Shown piece after piece: positions 9,556 through 37,094 of a DNA stretch of 37,094 nucleotides. This stretch comes from a virus. Below the pieces are notes generated by a model. It did no database searches and was not told where the DNA came from. It was given only the letters and a program-made list of their open reading frames with translations. The position numbers and the translations under genes are program-made. The DNA lies in the IMG/VR virus record IMGVR_UViG_3300047546_001503, positions 1 to 37,094 of that record. One strand, 5' to 3'. Each line of letters starts with the position of its first letter. The first letter of the stretch is position 1.

Positions 9556-9628
9556 TGGTCTGTAGTTCAGTTGGCAGAACGGGGCACTGTTAATGCCTAG
9601 GTCGTAGGTTCGAGTCCTACCAGACCAG
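9556..9628 (+). tRNA. tRNA-Asn (GTT)
   Basis: Cloverleaf of 73 bases: acceptor TGGTCTG / CAGACCA, D arm GTTC...GAAC, anticodon loop CTGTTAA with anticodon GTT, and T arm with GGTTCGAGTCC. No encoded CCA. Confidence 0.95.
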
Positions 9629-9632
9629 CAAT

Positions 9633-9706
9633 GGTCCGTTAGTTCAGTTGGTTAGAACGCCACCCTGTCACGGTGGAGGTCGTCGGTTCAAGTCCGATAC
9701 GGATCG
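9633..9706 (+). tRNA. tRNA-Asp (GTC)
   Basis: Acceptor GGTCCGT / ACGGATC (one G-T pair), anticodon loop CTGTCAC with anticodon GTC, T loop TTCAAGT. CCA is not encoded. Confidence 0.95.
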
Positions 9707-9710
9707 CCCC

Positions 9711-9782
9711 GTCTCCATCGTCTAGCGGTTAGGACAACGCCCTTTCACGGCGTAAACACGGGTTCGATTCCCGTTGGAGATA
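9711..9782 (+). tRNA. tRNA-Glu (TTC)
   Basis: Acceptor GTCTCCA / TGGAGAT, anticodon stem CGCC/GGCG closing loop CTTTCAC with anticodon TTC, T arm CGGG-TTCGATT-CCCG. CCA is not encoded. Confidence 0.95.
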
Positions 9783-9783
9783 C

Positions 9784-9855
9784 GCCTCCTTAACTCAGGG
9801 GTAGAGTACTCGCCTTGTAAGCGAGATGTCGTAGGTTCAAATCCTACAGGAGGCT
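9784..9855 (+). tRNA. tRNA-Thr (TGT)
   Basis: Acceptor GCCTCCT / AGGAGGC, anticodon stem CTCGC/GCGAG closing loop CTTGTAA with anticodon TGT, T arm GTAGG-TTCAAAT-CCTAC. CCA is not encoded. Confidence 0.95.
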
Positions 9856-9856
9856 C

Positions 9857-13327: not shown

Positions 13328-14266
13328 ATGCCATATCATGTAGGTGCTAAAGGGTCTTATGGATGTGCGGGATATCCCGCTCTAAAAGACGGTACAAATG
13401 AGGTTATGGGCTGCCATCAAACACGTTCTCAAGCAGCAGCACAGATCTATGCAATTAATCGTTCTGAGGGCAATATAGGCAAGGCTATGGTCAAAGAAGG
13501 CGATATGGTCATGGCTCCTAATGATGATGAAGTTTATGTTGGTCGTATTGTTCATGTAATGACTGAGGGAATGCTTGGATATCCTGGATCAGAATATTCT
13601 ATTATGGCTTCTGCAGAAGAACCAGCAGTATTAATTCAACTTTTTGAAATGGAAGATGGCGGATTAGAAGAGACAGAATATTTTATAGGTATGGAGGCGT
13701 CAGAGGTTATGCCAATGCCATCTCTAGAGTCAAATGTTGGTATTGATAAATCAATGCACGAAATGCAAGATGATGAAGATGATATAGATAAGGCAAAGAA
13801 GCCTAATTATGGAGAAATGATTAAGCCACGCAGTGGCGGATCTGAACCATCTAATCCAAGATTATATGCAAGAGTTGTGCAAGCAGCAAAAGATAAGTTT
13901 GATGTTTATCCTTCCGCAGTTGCTAATGCTTGGGTAGTTCAAGAATATAAGCGTCGTGGTGGAACATACAAGGGCGAAGGCATTGAGGCAGAAAAACGTG
14001 AGTTTTCAAGTTCTACTCGTGAGAGAATGGCAGAAGCAGGAACAGCAATGCCAGATGGATCTTTTCCAATTGCAAATCGTAATGATTTAATGAATGCAAT
14101 TAGATCTGTTGGTCGTGCAAAAAATTATGATTCTGCAAAACAACACATTATTCGCCGTGCTCGTGCACTAGGATTAGTAGATATGCTTCCAGAAGACTGG
14201 AAGCCAGGAGTTCGTAAAACTATGTGGGGCGGATCAGTATTTGATTTAAATCCGTTTACAAAATAA
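13328..14266 (+). CDS. multidomain protein with head-maturation-associated domains
   Basis: 312 residues in four blocks. 1-48: a Cys/Gly-rich domain (GAKGSYGCAGYPALKDGT...GCHQTRSQAAAQI). 50-130: a small beta domain (EGDMVMAPNDDEVYVGRI). 155-220: a helical domain (NPRLYARVVQAAKDKFDVYPSAVANAWVVQEYKRRGG). 235-300: a domain found with phage prohead proteases (AMPDGSFPIANRNDLMNAIR...HIIRRARALG). These domains commonly decorate capsid protease or portal proteins of actinophages; here they occur without a protease domain. A structural or assembly role is inferred. Leaderless promoter upstream. Confidence 0.7.
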   Translation: MPYHVGAKGSYGCAGYPALKDGTNEVMGCHQTRSQAAAQIYAINRSEGNIGKAMVKEGDMVMAPNDDEVYVGRIVHVMTEGMLGYPGSEYSIMASAEEPAVLIQLFEMEDGGLEETEYFIGMEASEVMPMPSLESNVGIDKSMHEMQDDEDDIDKAKKPNYGEMIKPRSGGSEPSNPRLYARVVQAAKDKFDVYPSAVANAWVVQEYKRRGGTYKGEGIEAEKREFSSSTRERMAEAGTAMPDGSFPIANRNDLMNAIRSVGRAKNYDSAKQHIIRRARALGLVDMLPEDWKPGVRKTMWGGSVFDLNPFTK

Positions 14267-26583: not shown

Positions 26584-26599
26584 CCAGCGTAATTACTTG

Positions 26600-26673
26600 T
26601 AGAGCAGGTAGGACTTGAACCTACGATAACCGAATTATGAGTTCGGGGCCTTAACCAACTTGGCTACTGCTCC
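26600..26673 (-). tRNA. tRNA with CAT anticodon (Met elongator or Ile2)
   Basis: Acceptor GGAGCAG / CTGCTCT (one G-T pair), D arm AGCCAAGTTGGTTAAGGC, anticodon stem CCGAA/TTCGG closing loop CTCATAA, T arm GTAGG-TTCAAGT-CCTAC. Not an initiator because the anticodon stem lacks three G-C pairs. Met and lysidine-modified Ile2 cannot be told apart here. The upstream gene's stop codon abuts its first base. Confidence 0.9.
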
Positions 26674-30765: not shown

Positions 30766-30843
30766 CTACTCTATGCCTATCTCTTCAAACTGATCAATAT
30801 GATCATCTATGTCTCTATTAATAGGAAATATCTCGTCTTTCAT
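30766..30843 (-). CDS. possible 25-residue microprotein
   Basis: MKDEIFPINRDIDDHIDQFE then EIGIE: very acidic. A leftward TATAAT (30851-30856) lies seven bases before the ATG, near the leaderless spacing seen elsewhere, and a hairpin follows the stop. Without the promoter I would not call so short a frame. Confidence 0.45.
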   Translation of the reverse strand: MKDEIFPINRDIDDHIDQFEEIGIE

Positions 30844-30856
30844 AAATACTATTATA

Positions 30857-31006
30857 TAACAGAAAGGGGGCCTTTTATCCTCATGCCCAGGAGAGAGAGC
30901 GTAGAAAGGGACGCTCTGCAGAGACTCCACCACATAGCAAGCCATCAGTTGTATGTCTCTGGACTAACTATTGTAGCATAAGTTTTGCGGTATCTCAAAT
31001 ATACTT
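30857..31006. other. gene-free stretch with two stem-loops
   Basis: No convincing gene on either strand. AGAGCGT (30896-30902) pairs with ACGCTCT (30911-30917), and CAGAGAC (30919-30925) pairs with GTCTCTG (30955-30961). The block 30866-30961 is richer in GC than its surroundings, suggesting a structured RNA, but neither orientation has a clear promoter. Confidence 0.4.
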
Positions 31007-31015
31007 TGATATAAT
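31007..31015 (+). promoter_or_regulatory. near-leaderless extended -10 for the 31023 gene
   Basis: TGATATAAT, seven bases before the ATG at 31023. Confidence 0.68.
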
Positions 31016-31022
31016 ATGGAAT

Positions 31023-31235
31023 ATGGCCATTAAAAGTATAACTGAGTTAAAGTCTAAATTTGAATCTGGGGACTGGCCTAGATCAAGTGATTATGTTGAC
31101 CTTATAGATACTTTGGCATCTCTGCCTATAGAAACATGGGATGGTGGAGATATTGTTAGTAATACAGATTATTTATCATATGGAGAAACAATACGTGACG
31201 CTGAAGAAGAAGGCGTTGACGGAGGATCTTTATAA
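31023..31235 (+). CDS. small protein resembling tail-fibre N-terminal segments
   Basis: Seventy residues. AIKSITELKSKFESGDWPRSSDYVDLIDTLAS follows the pattern L-K-x-K-F-x-x-G-D-x-P-x-x-x-D-[FY]-x-D-L-I-D seen at the start or within phage tail-fibre and receptor-binding proteins. Here it stands alone with an acidic tail (DAEEEGVDGG), so it may be a remnant or a small adaptor. Quoted fragments: SKFESGDWPRSSDYVDLID. Confidence 0.65.
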   Translation: MAIKSITELKSKFESGDWPRSSDYVDLIDTLASLPIETWDGGDIVSNTDYLSYGETIRDAEEEGVDGGSL

Positions 31236-31263
31236 ATCGCATTTTGGGCGGGTATAAAGCAAA

Positions 31264-31272
31264 TGCTATAAT
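31264..31272 (+). promoter_or_regulatory. extended -10 for the 31282 gene
   Basis: TGCTATAAT, nine bases before the ATG at 31282, giving a leader of only about two or three bases. Confidence 0.65.
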
Positions 31273-31281
31273 ATCCCTAGT

Positions 31282-31473
31282 ATGATACATAACTGTATAA
31301 AATGTAAATCAAAATTAATTCCTATTGTATATGGCAGATTAGATCCAGAAGCAATAACAATGATGGCCAGAAATGAGATTATTATTAGCCTGGATAAGGA
31401 TAGAAGATATAATTCCTTTTGCCCATTGTGCGAAGAATCTTATGTGGATTTTACGGATACCCCGCAAAATTAA
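31282..31473 (+). CDS. zinc ribbon protein of actinobacterial type
   Basis: Sixty-three residues. C5-x2-C8 (CIKC) and CPLC near 48-51 frame a middle segment KLIPIVYGRLDPEAITMMA. The PIVYG-x(4)-E pattern between two CxxC pairs is one I recognise from uncharacterised actinobacterial proteins. Convergent with, and overlapping by four bases, the leftward 31655 gene. Confidence 0.72.
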   Translation: MIHNCIKCKSKLIPIVYGRLDPEAITMMARNEIIISLDKDRRYNSFCPLCEESYVDFTDTPQN

Positions 31474-31655
31474 TCTCTATTATCCTGATGATCTTCACAG
31501 ACAGAAAATAGTTTTTCCTGTATAGCCTTTATGCCTATGGACTTACCGCCACAAAAATAACAATTAGACATAAAACCATAATTGCGTTGGCGAATTTCGT
31601 CCAATGCTTGAATCAATCTTACATCTTTATACCATTGAGTATTCTGACTAGGCAT
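31470..31655 (-). CDS. small Cys/His protein beside the putative origin
   Basis: Sixty-one residues from the ATG at 31655, placed exactly six bases after a -10; the longer frame would run into DnaA-box sequence. A helical N-terminus (YKDVRLIQALDEIRQRNYG) and a metal-binding set CYFCGGKS ... VCEDH (Cys, Cys, Cys, His). It resembles small zinc proteins of phages; role unknown. Confidence 0.68.
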   Translation of the reverse strand: MPSQNTQWYKDVRLIQALDEIRQRNYGFMSNCYFCGGKSIGIKAIQEKLFSVCEDHQDNRD

Positions 31656-31661
31656 ATACAA

Positions 31662-31670
31662 ATTATAGCA
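31662..31670 (-). promoter_or_regulatory. leaderless-type extended -10 for the 31655 gene
   Basis: Leftward TGCTATAAT, six bases to the ATG. The DnaA-like boxes at 31674-31714 cover the region where the -35 would lie, which could allow DnaA to control this gene. Confidence 0.78.
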
Positions 31671-31673
31671 TAG

Positions 31674-31714
31674 ATATCCACATTTTGAGATACTTATCCA
31701 CAGGTTTATCCACA
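31674..31714 (+). promoter_or_regulatory. cluster of DnaA boxes
   Basis: TTATCCACA occurs twice (31694-31702 and 31706-31714), twelve bases apart. ATATCCACA at 31674-31682 differs at one base, and a further GTATCCACA lies at 31889-31897. All four are in the same orientation. These match the bacterial DnaA consensus TTATNCACA. Confidence 0.75.
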
Positions 31715-31859
31715 AAAATATATTACTGATAATATTATCTCATAATTATTGTGGAGGAAAATGGAGTAAAGTGGGGAATGGAGCATTTTTAAGAGGGGCG
31801 CTCGTAATCCCAAACCTTATCCTTTACCTAATCAAATTAGCCTTTACTTAATATATCCC

Positions 31860-31888
31860 CTTATACCACATATCAAATTGTTTGTCAA
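31860..31888 (-). promoter_or_regulatory. leftward promoter without a gene
   Basis: TTGACA (31883-31888), 17-base spacer, TATAAG (31860-31865), read leftward. It would transcribe across the region toward the DnaA boxes, with no reading frame until 31655. A primer RNA is one possibility. Confidence 0.7.
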
Positions 31889-32078
31889 GTATCCACAATA
31901 TGGACAAAACATCTCAAATACTGATATATAAAAATGTCCAAATTTGTGGAAAAATTGTAACAAAATGTTATAAAATGTTTTAAAACATATAGAAAATCCA
32001 GGAAAAAATATGAAAAGTTCGTAATCTTTTTTTATAGGTATATATGGGGATAGATAATGGGGGATCGTAATCTTTTTT

Positions 32079-32116
32079 ATACCCGCCCTTCGGGCGCCGC
32101 CGTTTGCGGCGGGTAT
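32079..32116. other. GC-rich palindrome in AT-rich DNA
   Basis: ATACCCGCC / GGCGGGTAT form a 9-bp outer stem. The inside can fold into CGCCC-TTC-GGGCG and GCCGC-CGTTT-GCGGC, so a cruciform is possible. It ends one base before the TTGACA of the hairpin-RNA promoter. Confidence 0.8.
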
Positions 32117-32145
32117 TTGACAAACACTTTAATACTTGATATACT
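32117..32145 (+). promoter_or_regulatory. promoter of the hairpin RNA
   Basis: TTGACA (32117-32122), 17-base spacer, TATACT (32140-32145). The predicted start at about 32152 is three bases before the hairpin. Confidence 0.9.
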
Positions 32146-32151
32146 ATATAT

Positions 32152-32196
32152 TACATTAGGATCAAGTAAACCTTTCTGGCTTGATCCTAATTTTTT
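32152..32196 (+). ncRNA. short hairpin RNA gene with anti-Shine-Dalgarno loop
   Basis: The predicted transcript is about 45 nt and is nearly all hairpin: a perfect 12-bp stem, ATTAGGATCAAG (32155-32166) with CTTGATCCTAAT (32180-32191), around the loop TAAACCTTTCTGG, then a run of T to 32196. The hairpin is thus both the whole RNA and its terminator. The loop holds CCTTTCT, the complement of AGAAAGG found before four lead genes of the right-hand module (33610, 35208, 35869, 37065). It could also just be a terminator for upstream transcripts, but the dedicated promoter argues for an RNA gene. Confidence 0.7.
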
Positions 32197-32208
32197 ATAT
32201 ATATGGAT

Positions 32209-32237
32209 TTGACAAAATTATAAAGATTTGTTATAAT
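32209..32237 (+). promoter_or_regulatory. perfect consensus promoter facing the repeats
   Basis: TTGACA (32209-32214), 17-base spacer, TATAAT (32232-32237). It reads rightward across the tandem repeats and then antisense to the leftward 32334-33130 genes. No sense gene follows. Confidence 0.92.
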
Positions 32238-32333
32238 CTCCGTGATTTTTTATATGCGTTCGTAATCTTATTTTCCTGGAAAAAATATTCGACGTTCGTA
32301 ATCTAATTTTGGCTGTAAAATTTTCGACCCGCC

Positions 32334-33256: not shown

Positions 33257-33610
33257 TTAAACCGATATAGGTGCTCCATGATAATTAATAAAACTTTCAA
33301 AGTCATGAATGCCAGTCTCATCTTCTACAGTCTTATTAACTAGGTCAATAGTGATATCTGGATGGTCCCCACCATATGCACCGCTGCTATTGCTGGCCCA
33401 TAAACCAAAACCAGTTTCTTCATTCCATTCGTCCCCAATCAACTGGGACACAATAATACGTGTTGCATAGGATGTGTCATTCCACCGTGGCTCTGCGGCC
33501 CGTAGTGCAGCAGCCAGGGACTCAAATCTATCGCTGCCACCCCAATGGCTGTACAGATTGACTGACAAACCATTATCATCTTTAATTGTATATACTACTC
33601 TATCTCCCAT
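33257..33610 (-). CDS. conserved actinophage-type protein
   Basis: 117 residues. MGDRVVYTIKDDNGLSVNLYSHWGGSDRFESLAAALRAA, quoted as NLYSHWGGSDRFESLAAAL, then PRWNDTSYATRIIVSQLIGD and TGFGLWASN. I recognise this layout (YSHWGG, PRWNDTSYATR, GFGL) from uncharacterised actinophage and plasmid proteins. The leader carries AGAAAGGG. First gene of its operon. Confidence 0.78.
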   Translation of the reverse strand: MGDRVVYTIKDDNGLSVNLYSHWGGSDRFESLAAALRAAEPRWNDTSYATRIIVSQLIGDEWNEETGFGLWASNSSGAYGGDHPDITIDLVNKTVEDETGIHDFESFINYHGAPISV

Positions 33611-33640
33611 GGTGTTTCCCTTTCTAGTTGGTTTGTTAAC

Positions 33641-34490: not shown

Positions 34491-35208
34491 TTATTTGGTC
34501 CATTCTGTAGTCGGGAACATGCTCTTCGTCTAAGTATACTTTATGGATGTCACAATCTGCAACTATATCTAGGTCTGCCTCACCCATATAATTACAATCA
34601 CTGCAAATTTCTCCACAGTCATTTTCACAGTACTCTAATGTATTTAATGAATCACAATCTCTACACTTATTGTCATATGATTCTGTCTCTGTTCCCTCGC
34701 CATTCTTAAATACAATCTCACCACCCCAACCAGTCTCTTCTTCAAAAGATAAAGTAAAGACTAATTCAGGATATTGTTGAGATAGTTTAGCAATGGCCTC
34801 AGCAGGTGGAGACCAAGCGGTATTAAAACGGTATCCCAAATAATCATTAGATTCATCAGTTAACTCAGTTTCAGCAAATGCTTCATTGTCTACAACAGCA
34901 ACGTCCCACTTGGTTCCCCAATTGCGGACATTCCAGTTATACCAATCATTACCTGAAAAGTCTAATGGATTCTTGCTATGGTCAGGTTGGCTTTGATATA
35001 CCTCTTCAGATATACCGTCTTGCAAATGATTATATATATTATGAAATGCAAATACTGGATTAGAATATGTATATTCTTTAAATCCCATTTGCTTTGTTTC
35101 CATATCAAAGTTCTCATGAACCTTGGTAAATGGTTTATTAAGTTGTTCTTTCAGGGCAGGTACCGCTGGTCCTGAAATACTAAGGTGGTTATATACCCAA
35201 TTTGGCAT
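34483..35208 (-). CDS. Api92/YubB-like protein with C-terminal zinc motif
   Basis: 241 residues. MPNWVYNHLSISGP at the start and the later NVRNWGTKWDV and TAWSPPAEAIAKLSQQYPEL are signatures of the Api92/YubB (DUF1281) family with its ferredoxin-like fold, found on plasmids and phages. A Cys-rich segment follows (CRDCDSL, CENDCGEICSDC), a zinc-binding addition that standard members lack. The leader has CAGAAAGG. First gene of a five-gene leftward operon. Function of the family is unknown. Confidence 0.82.
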   Translation of the reverse strand: MPNWVYNHLSISGPAVPALKEQLNKPFTKVHENFDMETKQMGFKEYTYSNPVFAFHNIYNHLQDGISEEVYQSQPDHSKNPLDFSGNDWYNWNVRNWGTKWDVAVVDNEAFAETELTDESNDYLGYRFNTAWSPPAEAIAKLSQQYPELVFTLSFEEETGWGGEIVFKNGEGTETESYDNKCRDCDSLNTLEYCENDCGEICSDCNYMGEADLDIVADCDIHKVYLDEEHVPDYRMDQING

Positions 35209-35235
35209 GGGGTTCCTTTCTGTAGTCGTAATACA

Positions 35236-35642: not shown

Positions 35643-35869
35643 TATGCATTCTCCCTTTCCATATTCTTATGATACGCTGATAAAGGAGAAATGTAAAGTT
35701 CAAAATCTTTTTCGGGGTATTGACTAATAAGATAATTTAACGCATCTCCAGCGGTATTAAAACCATCTACATTTCTACTATTACCATAGTCACTTATATC
35801 TATTTCCCAAACATCTTTGCCGCCTGGAGAAATAGAATATTCTACTTCATATATTTCTGCTTTTATCAT
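35642..35869 (-). CDS. small mixed alpha/beta protein
   Basis: Seventy-five residues. MIKAEIYEVEYSISPGGKDV, WEIDISDYGNSRNVDGFNTA, GDALNYLISQYPEKDFELYI: strand, strand, helix, strand. The pattern suggests a small fold of actinophage type. The leader has CAGAAAGGG 6-7 bases before the ATG. First gene of a three-gene operon. Confidence 0.7.
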   Translation of the reverse strand: MIKAEIYEVEYSISPGGKDVWEIDISDYGNSRNVDGFNTAGDALNYLISQYPEKDFELYISPLSAYHKNMERENA

Positions 35870-35893
35870 TGGATCCCTTTCTGTGGTAATTCA

Positions 35894-35994: not shown

Positions 35995-36028
35995 AGAAAA
36001 AAAATTGAGCAGTTTATACTCTTGCTCA
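35995..36028 (-). terminator. rho-independent terminator of the DUF932 gene
   Basis: Leftward TGAGCA (36023-36028) pairs with TGCTCA (36006-36011) across an 11-base loop and is followed by ATTTTTTTT. The same hairpin occurs after hsp20 at 11100-11123. Confidence 0.85.
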
Positions 36029-36045
36029 GGAGTTGCGTATTTATT

Positions 36046-37065
36046 TTACGCTATTGCTAAAACATCTTTTACAACTTTTAGCAAACGATTTTTTTCTGCG
36101 GTAATTGTCGCATCAAAACCAGAAGCAGCAGCAAGTAGTGATTCGTTATTATCACCACGAGCAGAACGATGCCAATCTAAACGCTCAGTTAGAGCATTGA
36201 AAGCACCCCAAGCAGAACCAGCAATCATGCCGTTATATTCGCCTGTGTAGATGTCATTGATAACATCAACCTTGTTAGCCCACTTTTTGATTGAGCCTTT
36301 AGAATCTTTCTCAGGCTTAGGATAAGCAGAGAGAATGATGTCATTGAATTGCTGTGCTGTGATTTCTTTTTGAATCATAGCATGAGCAAGTTTATCAAAC
36401 TCGTCCATATAAGCATTAGCAAGACCAAGAGCCTCACGAGCAATAGCAATCTTGCCTTCCGCCGTCTGAGTATGACGGATTTTGAAAGACTGTTTTACAC
36501 TACCCTTTTTGCGCTTGATATTTCCAAGAGCAAGATTGAGAGTGTTAGCGCATACAACACGAACAGGAGTGATTGATGCTTGAATAGCAACAGAGCCGTC
36601 ATGTGAAGTGTTGATTAGAAGATAGGTTTTGACTTTATCTGCCACACCTTTAGGGTCTAATACAGTTTCACGCTCAAGAGCAAGAGAGCCGAATACAACA
36701 CGACCACCACGAATTGAGCCAGCAGTTTCCCAACGACCTCCGCCGTCTAGGATATTATCACCGAAAGCGAATAGTTCTTCATTTTGAACAGGAACATAAC
36801 GCTCACCGACAACACCAAGAACATCTGTCTGAGTTTTGTCAGTAGGATTTGTTCTTACAACATATTGATAAGATTTATCTGATGTAAGAGTATTTGGAAT
36901 TTCAACATCAACTAATCTAACATTCCAATTATTTAGATTAGCAGCAGCCAGCATTTCTGCTGTATTTTTTTCTTCTGTGAATACTGTGCCTAGACCATGC
37001 CAAGCAGGTTCACGGAAAGATGCGAACGAAGCAACGCCATTTTGCGTTTCTAATTCATGAGCCAT
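36046..37065 (-). CDS. DUF932 (TIGR03299-type) phage/plasmid protein
   Basis: 339 residues. MAHELETQNGVASFASFREPAWHGLG, quoted as FASFREPAWHGLGTVF, then VLGVVGERYVPVQNEELFAFGD, and TPVRVVCANTLNLAL are the family hallmarks. Members are widespread in phages and plasmids, often beside replication functions, but no activity is established. AGAAAGGAA lies about 7 bases before the ATG; a strong terminator follows. Codon use is more GC-rich than in the left part of the window, like its neighbours here. Confidence 0.92.
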   Translation of the reverse strand: MAHELETQNGVASFASFREPAWHGLGTVFTEEKNTAEMLAAANLNNWNVRLVDVEIPNTLTSDKSYQYVVRTNPTDKTQTDVLGVVGERYVPVQNEELFAFGDNILDGGGRWETAGSIRGGRVVFGSLALERETVLDPKGVADKVKTYLLINTSHDGSVAIQASITPVRVVCANTLNLALGNIKRKKGSVKQSFKIRHTQTAEGKIAIAREALGLANAYMDEFDKLAHAMIQKEITAQQFNDIILSAYPKPEKDSKGSIKKWANKVDVINDIYTGEYNGMIAGSAWGAFNALTERLDWHRSARGDNNESLLAAASGFDATITAEKNRLLKVVKDVLAIA

Positions 37066-37094
37066 TTTTATTTCCTTTCTATAGCCATTTAGAA

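Follow-up and report, generated by a model that had tools for sequence, protein, structure and literature searches.

A candidate small-RNA gene of a freshwater actinophage with the 3′ end of 16S rRNA in its hairpin loop

The window analyzed here, a stand-alone IMG/VR virus record of 37,094 nt, holds a promoter followed almost at once by a terminator-like hairpin whose loop copies the last bases of 16S rRNA. What could such a locus do for the phage? An earlier note had read it as a self-contained hairpin RNA gene of about 45 nt that either silences a set of leadered genes as a group or mimics the 16S tail. The window belongs to a freshwater phage of actinobacteria whose closest cultured relatives are Boydwoodruffvirinae Streptomyces phages (54% in terminase and DUF932 proteins).

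Layout and conservation of hairpin A

The hairpin, hereafter hairpin A, its promoter P1, and their noncoding surroundings comprise the following features:

31694-31702 and 31706-31714 (+): two DnaA-box-like TTATCCACA sites in the noncoding, origin-like region that holds hairpin A
32117-32145 (+): promoter P1, TTGACA (32117-32122), 17-nt spacer, TATACT (32140-32145)
32155-32166 (+): 5′ arm of hairpin A, 9 nt past the -10 element, about at the expected transcription start
32167-32179 (+): loop of hairpin A, TAAACCTTTCTGG, 13 nt, with CCTTTCT at 32171-32177
32180-32196 (+): 3′ arm (32180-32191) and run of six T (32191-32196), intrinsic-terminator-like
32209-32237 (+): promoter P2, TTGACA-17-TATAAT

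The promoter described previously was borne out letter for letter, the coordinates and complementarity agree with a perfect 12-bp hairpin (13 bp if a G-U pair is counted) that begins near the predicted start and ends in a T run, and CCTTTCT does lie within the 13-base loop. This heptamer equals the 3′ end of 16S rRNA and is the complement of AGAAAGG. Since transcription is expected to start at the hairpin or a few bases from it, the RNA would be about 42 nt long rather than 45. The 42-nt RNA folds at -15.8 kcal/mol (z -6.1), a value equaled by none of 200 shuffles, and the 80-nt stretch containing the hairpin gives a fold z of -5.6. The consensus P1 and the T-run hairpin, both kept in relatives, predict that this RNA has its own promoter and terminator, as a trans-acting small RNA should.

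Relatives were collected by protein query, by a conserved DNA landmark in the noncoding region, and by promoter-plus-loop patterns. Among the matches listed by a loose promoter-plus-loop search and a stem-only pattern search, most were unrelated or coding, and those retained were L203 for hairpin A and later L098 and L119 for element B (see below); a tighter loop search gave no lineage beyond those already found. P1 and hairpin A keep their spacing to the landmark and their strand in five other lineages (L218/L044, L203/L269, L243, L248, and L250), with both P1 hexamers identical in L218, L203, L243, L248, and L250. One additional hairpin stands ahead of hairpin A in L243, L248, and L250. Furthermore, the distant relatives L072 and L076 have, upstream of DUF932, a hairpin whose loop reads TTACCTTTCTTT; its stems are unrelated to the syntenic versions and its positions differ from theirs, and these two hairpins, aligned on their loop, are possibly convergent.

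Across the seven distinct versions, 96.4% of stem cells are paired and both sides have changed in 10 of the 12 stem pairs, compared with a shuffled mean of 4.6; none of 500 shuffles and no slid register came near this count. Because L072 and L076 may be convergent, covariation was also stated for the syntenic versions alone, in which both-side changes remain at pairs 4, 5, 10, and 11. Free loop variation among relatives, which the earlier note had named as evidence against an RNA of this kind, was not seen: the eight loop columns ACCTTTCT are invariant in all seven versions while the stem covaries. In the L218-type loops, the UUA/UGG ends may pair and leave only CCUUUC open. Layout, covarying stem, and fixed loop together argue for a self-contained RNA gene with an anti-Shine-Dalgarno (anti-SD) loop.

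The noncoding stretch with the DnaA-box-like sites at 31694-31714 is common to relatives and may be a phage origin; in Streptomyces phage Angela, similar boxes adjoin DUF932, and the part of that genome searched has no CCTTTCT hairpin. Relatives with and without hairpin A alike have a promoter at the position of P2. Repeats of the form (T/A)TCGTAAT, a candidate operator or origin repeat, are spread over 31800-32310 (+) in the window and recur upstream of leftward promoters near 35230 and 35930, within the P1 spacer of L218, L203, L243, L248, and L250, and, as TCGTAA, in Angela. A GC-rich inverted-repeat block occupies 32078-32116, directly upstream of P1, and sequence-changed versions of it are found in hairpin-A carriers.

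Element B, a further predicted RNA with an anti-SD loop

Neither the conservation of hairpin A nor a companion to it was anticipated in the earlier note. The companion, a second predicted RNA with such a loop (element B), lies on the other strand of the window at about 30961-30860 (-):

30970-30998 (-): promoter-like TTGAGA-17-TACAAT
30919-30961 (-): hairpin 1, CAGAGAC...GTCTCTG
30896-30917 (-): anti-SD hairpin, AGAGCGT-CCCTTTCT-ACGCTCT
30868-30894 (-): H-type pseudoknot, CTC-CTGGGCAT-GAG...GGGC/GCCC
30860-30867 (-): 3′ tail CCTTTCTG, an additional anti-SD copy

The window copy, which has CTCCTGGGCATGAGGATAAAAGGCCCCCTTTCTG after the anti-SD hairpin, is recovered by model R1 at 30860-30945 (E 2.7e-9). 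In relatives the arrays are fuller: a promoter is followed by a first hairpin, then by a pair of hairpins whose loops read, for example, TCCCTTTCTG, and finally by an H-type pseudoknot and CCTTTCTG; judged by sequence, the window element B is a reduced form of this two-loop version. In 11 versions, 96.8% of cells are paired and both sides have changed in 11 of 20 pairs, including a pseudoknot pair (A-U/G-C), while CCTTTCT is constant in both loops. Stems that vary freely around fixed loops argue that the hairpin RNAs are real.

Nearly every lineage with enough sequence has hairpin A or element B near the origin-like (DnaA-box) landmark, the former at offsets of +376 to +423 on one strand and the latter at -631 to -1825 on the opposite one. 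The window alone combines the two, its element B being reduced; in the available contigs, the other hairpin A carriers are without element B and the element B carriers without hairpin A. Neither was found in the sequence stretch available for L241 and L251, and several contigs are short, so that absence of either element is weaker evidence than presence. A fixed loop, a changing stem, and two apparently interchangeable designs make unusually clear comparative evidence for a phage noncoding RNA.

The pseudoknot module that closes element B also occurs by itself. The motif NNTC-CTGAGCAT-GANN...TAAAACTGCTC is present at 36000-36033 (-) in the window and at 94 distinct places in related loci, with changing stems and many copies directly past stop codons, and is possibly a new 3′-end RNA family. 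A 132-kb virus contig of another group (L281) has a tandem pair of pseudoknots with CTTTCT tails at 1871-2098.

Shine-Dalgarno partners and the proposed role

The complement of the loop heptamer is found in the leaders of four genes of the right-hand module:

33619-33625 (-): AGAAAGG Shine-Dalgarno (SD) of the gene starting at 33610
35215-35222 (-): CAGAAAGG SD of the gene starting at 35208 (Api92-like, DUF1281_C)
35876-35883 (-): CAGAAAGG SD of the gene starting at 35869
37074-37080 (-): AGAAAGG SD of the DUF932 gene starting at 37065

These are the four leaders reported by the earlier note, and all were found, as was the eight-base match in two of them (35208 and 35869), where C precedes AGAAAGG. 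None of the other ~65 candidate genes of the window has AGAAAGG within 25 bases before its start. The strongest loop-to-leader duplexes in the window are those of 35869, 33610, and 35208 (-12.9, -12.8, and -12.4 kcal/mol; the next is -9.9), and the number of genes that the loop pairs well exceeds that for shuffled loops only modestly, 10 of 500 shuffles reaching it. The exposed loop bases complementary to SDs of trans-encoded genes number 7 to 8 in the window and up to 10 in relatives, in which no partner is as constant as the Api92-like gene (7 to 10 nt in most carriers). Full-length loop matches are seen before another lead gene in L049 (CAGAAAGGGA) and in L076 (AAGAAAGGTA).

The claim that such genes are silenced as a group fared less well than the complementarity itself. 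The matched set shrinks in some carriers: L044 and L072 have few well-matched leaders, and the L044 loop matches one lead gene over 7 nt and a second over 6. Loops did not fit the leaders of their own phage significantly better than those of other phages (permutation p 0.13), and swapping loops costs little complementarity. Moreover, relatives without hairpin A retain their AGAAAGG leaders, a persistence that is expected because AGAAAGG is an ordinary SD for a CCTTTCT tail. Loop and SD sites could both be fixed by the ribosome alone, and the data point to constraint on the loop and its identity to the 16S end rather than to a particular pairing mRNA, if there is one.

That the 16S 3′ end reads CCTTTCT holds for the presumed host family. 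Contig L269, whose P1 and hairpin letters equal those of L203, sits in an Actinomycetota metagenome-assembled genome (MAG), the single bin on which the host presumption rests; in genomes of the MAG's family, the tail ends GGATCACCTCCTTTCT, then AAGGAG. A search for the 16S end in the MAG itself found none, and the bin may lack it. When models were run on about 100 genomes of this family, hairpin A was found solely in that MAG's phage contig, and the element B model, searched without a positive control, gave no match. A weak second hairpin A match (L312) was rejected, as it has no ACCTTTCT and cellular genes adjoin it.

On balance, we favor the reading that hairpin A masks the SD sites of phage lead genes and that element B does likewise. 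Hairpin A would be a minimal phage small-RNA gene of about 42 nt, reduced to start, hairpin, and terminator, that would present the last seven 16S bases, CCUUUCU, in a rigid loop. If expressed, this loop would pair in the cell with AGAAAGG SD sites and keep ribosomes off those mRNAs at some stage of infection; its likeliest targets would be the phage's own SD-led lead genes, the Api92-like gene above all. Element B would serve the same end with a different build, in which the loop is present two or three times. As AGAAAGG sites are kept without the hairpin and the permutation p is 0.13, masking is the best explanation rather than a demonstrated function. The two options of the earlier note, silencing and tail mimicry, amount to one chemistry that sequence alone does not separate; the anti-SD loop and its identity to the tail stand, and the silencing of a whole set is weakened by the AGAAAGG sites kept without hairpin A.

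Leaderless mRNAs are common in actinobacteria. A TATAAT-like box lies 4 to 11 nt upstream of 14 of 73 window starts, and these genes may be leaderless, in which case they would escape masking. Such boxes precede, among others, the starts at 13328, 26568, 27647, 31023, 31282, and 31655. More tentatively, and with doubt, we suggest a freshwater actinophage RNA class that displays the 16S 3′ end, in one copy or in pseudoknot-closed arrays of copies, and would thereby switch off SD-led early genes in the course of infection and move translation to leaderless ones. A phage RNA copying the sequence on which the ribosome lands its mRNAs would be a compact control of a whole message class, and if it separates SD-led from leaderless messages, the timing of actinobacterial-phage genes becomes testable.

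Masking of this kind has precedents. The loops of the actinobacterial small RNA B11/6C pair with ribosome binding sites, and its two loops can be redundant (PMC10470900). The RNAs described here resemble 6C/B11 in being small and structured with single-stranded loops complementary to ribosome binding sites, but they are phage-borne and have CCUUUCU loops, whereas 6C/B11 is encoded on the mycobacterial chromosome and has C-run loops. The two C-run stem-loops typical of 6C are absent, hairpin A having one loop and element B one or two, all with CCTTTCT, and the window has no match to the Rfam covariance model of 6C. The c4 RNA of phages P1 and P7 blocks translation near a ribosome binding site, with the complementary bases probably in loops (PMC12197685). 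Unlike c4, which acts on one mRNA in immunity control, the present RNAs share a generic anti-SD heptamer usable on several leaders; sequence relation to c4 was compared through Rfam only. Given the B11/6C and c4 precedents, the likeliest role is masking of AGAAAGG SDs, those of the phage's own lead genes first.

Small RNAs of the AbcR, LhrC, and RsaE type mask the SDs of several mRNAs with a C-rich loop motif (CUCCUCCC or UCCC). Their motif, host, and architecture differ from what is seen here, namely the extreme 16S end in a 42-nt single hairpin or a pseudoknot-ended array. The oop RNA of lambda is likewise short, terminator-ended, and located beside a phage origin, but it is antisense to a gene that it overlaps, whereas hairpin A overlaps no clear gene. 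A cmscan of the whole window against Rfam at gathering thresholds returned only tRNAs and no family for either RNA, and 30800-32330 searched up to E 10 gave neither 6C nor any other matching family. Blastn of GenBank phages with the hairpin A region and with element B gave no match, and the literature searched on this theme has no description of such a phage RNA. From these negatives, the RNAs and the array design appear new; the principle itself is known. The window tRNAs form a cluster of four (Asn, Asp, Glu, and Thr) at 9556-9856, with a separate tRNA-Met at 26599-26673.

Alternative readings

The loop could instead act as a decoy for proteins, occupying a factor that binds or cuts the 16S end, such as a maturation enzyme, a ribosomal protein, or an anti-phage RNase toxin. 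The loops do equal the 16S 3′ end and are arrayed with a pseudoknot, and actinobacterial RNase toxins have cut sites immediately ahead of the anti-SD: that of MazF-mt11 is C^ACCU (PMC12274833), and RelE1 cleaves between C1517 and A1518, at 11 nt from the 3′ end (PMC12620021). Counting 11 nt on from the C^ACCU cut leads to the mature 3′ end of mycobacterial 16S rRNA, ...CCUUUCU (PMC12274833, PMC12620021). However, the loops copy the last seven tail bases only, many add a G absent from the rRNA gene (where the next bases are AA), and the known cut sequences CACCU and UCCUU are missing from them, which is why a toxin decoy is kept only as a rival; we regard the decoy reading as unlikely.

We give a similarly low probability to hairpin A being a cis element of the origin-like region, either a transcribed or extruded unit (for origin activation, as a primer, or as a roadblock) or a rightward terminator, with the loop as a protein site. 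The noncoding surroundings with DnaA-like boxes, TCGTAAT repeats, and a second promoter would suit such an element, and the L072 hairpin adjoins two TTATCCACA boxes. In contrast, the same loops recur in element B, on the opposite strand at a distance of 0.6 to 1.8 kb, which means that position is not what stays constant; moreover, a terminator has no need of a fixed loop, and relatives without hairpin A keep the region otherwise intact.

Still less probable is a global effect on the host, in which the RNA would mask the SDs of host mRNAs and free ribosomes for the phage. A 7-base match would act on any AGAAAGG leader, and the 14 possibly leaderless phage starts would fit this reading. Yet when 400 kb of a single genome from the presumed host family was scanned, AGAAAGG preceded only 3 of 323 predicted starts and CAGAAAGG none, counts that are possibly underestimates, as the starts were taken mechanically.

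Loop content was also assessed by an unselected test of all 7-mers inside stable-hairpin loops, in 562 kb of non-redundant sequence from the relatives found by protein query; as these are not fully independent, its p-values serve as guides. CCCTTTC ranked first of all 7-mers (10 loops versus 0.7 expected, p 2.7e-9), and CCTTTCT ranked sixth (11 versus 1.8 expected, p 2.9e-6, which is borderline once 16,384 words are corrected for). All 11 CCTTTCT cases are hairpins of the present kind, 2 of them supplied by the window, which belongs to the test set. A chance hairpin holding the complement of a common SD is very improbable and largely refuted: CCTTTCT is not rare in the window, occurring on both strands at nine places (the four SDs, hairpin A, two in element B, and two coding), but covariation with a fixed loop, synteny across lineages, and the first rank in the 7-mer test all speak against chance.

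Related loops were noted elsewhere. Sense-strand terminator-like hairpins with loops CCCTTTCT and CAACCTTTCTA lie between two early genes in L031 (4653) and L039 (11697), and the window has a hairpin with a different loop in the equivalent gap. An unrelated virus contig (L018, 3703-3750, -) has a long hairpin whose loop region, ATTCACCTCCTTT, equals another stretch of the 16S tail.
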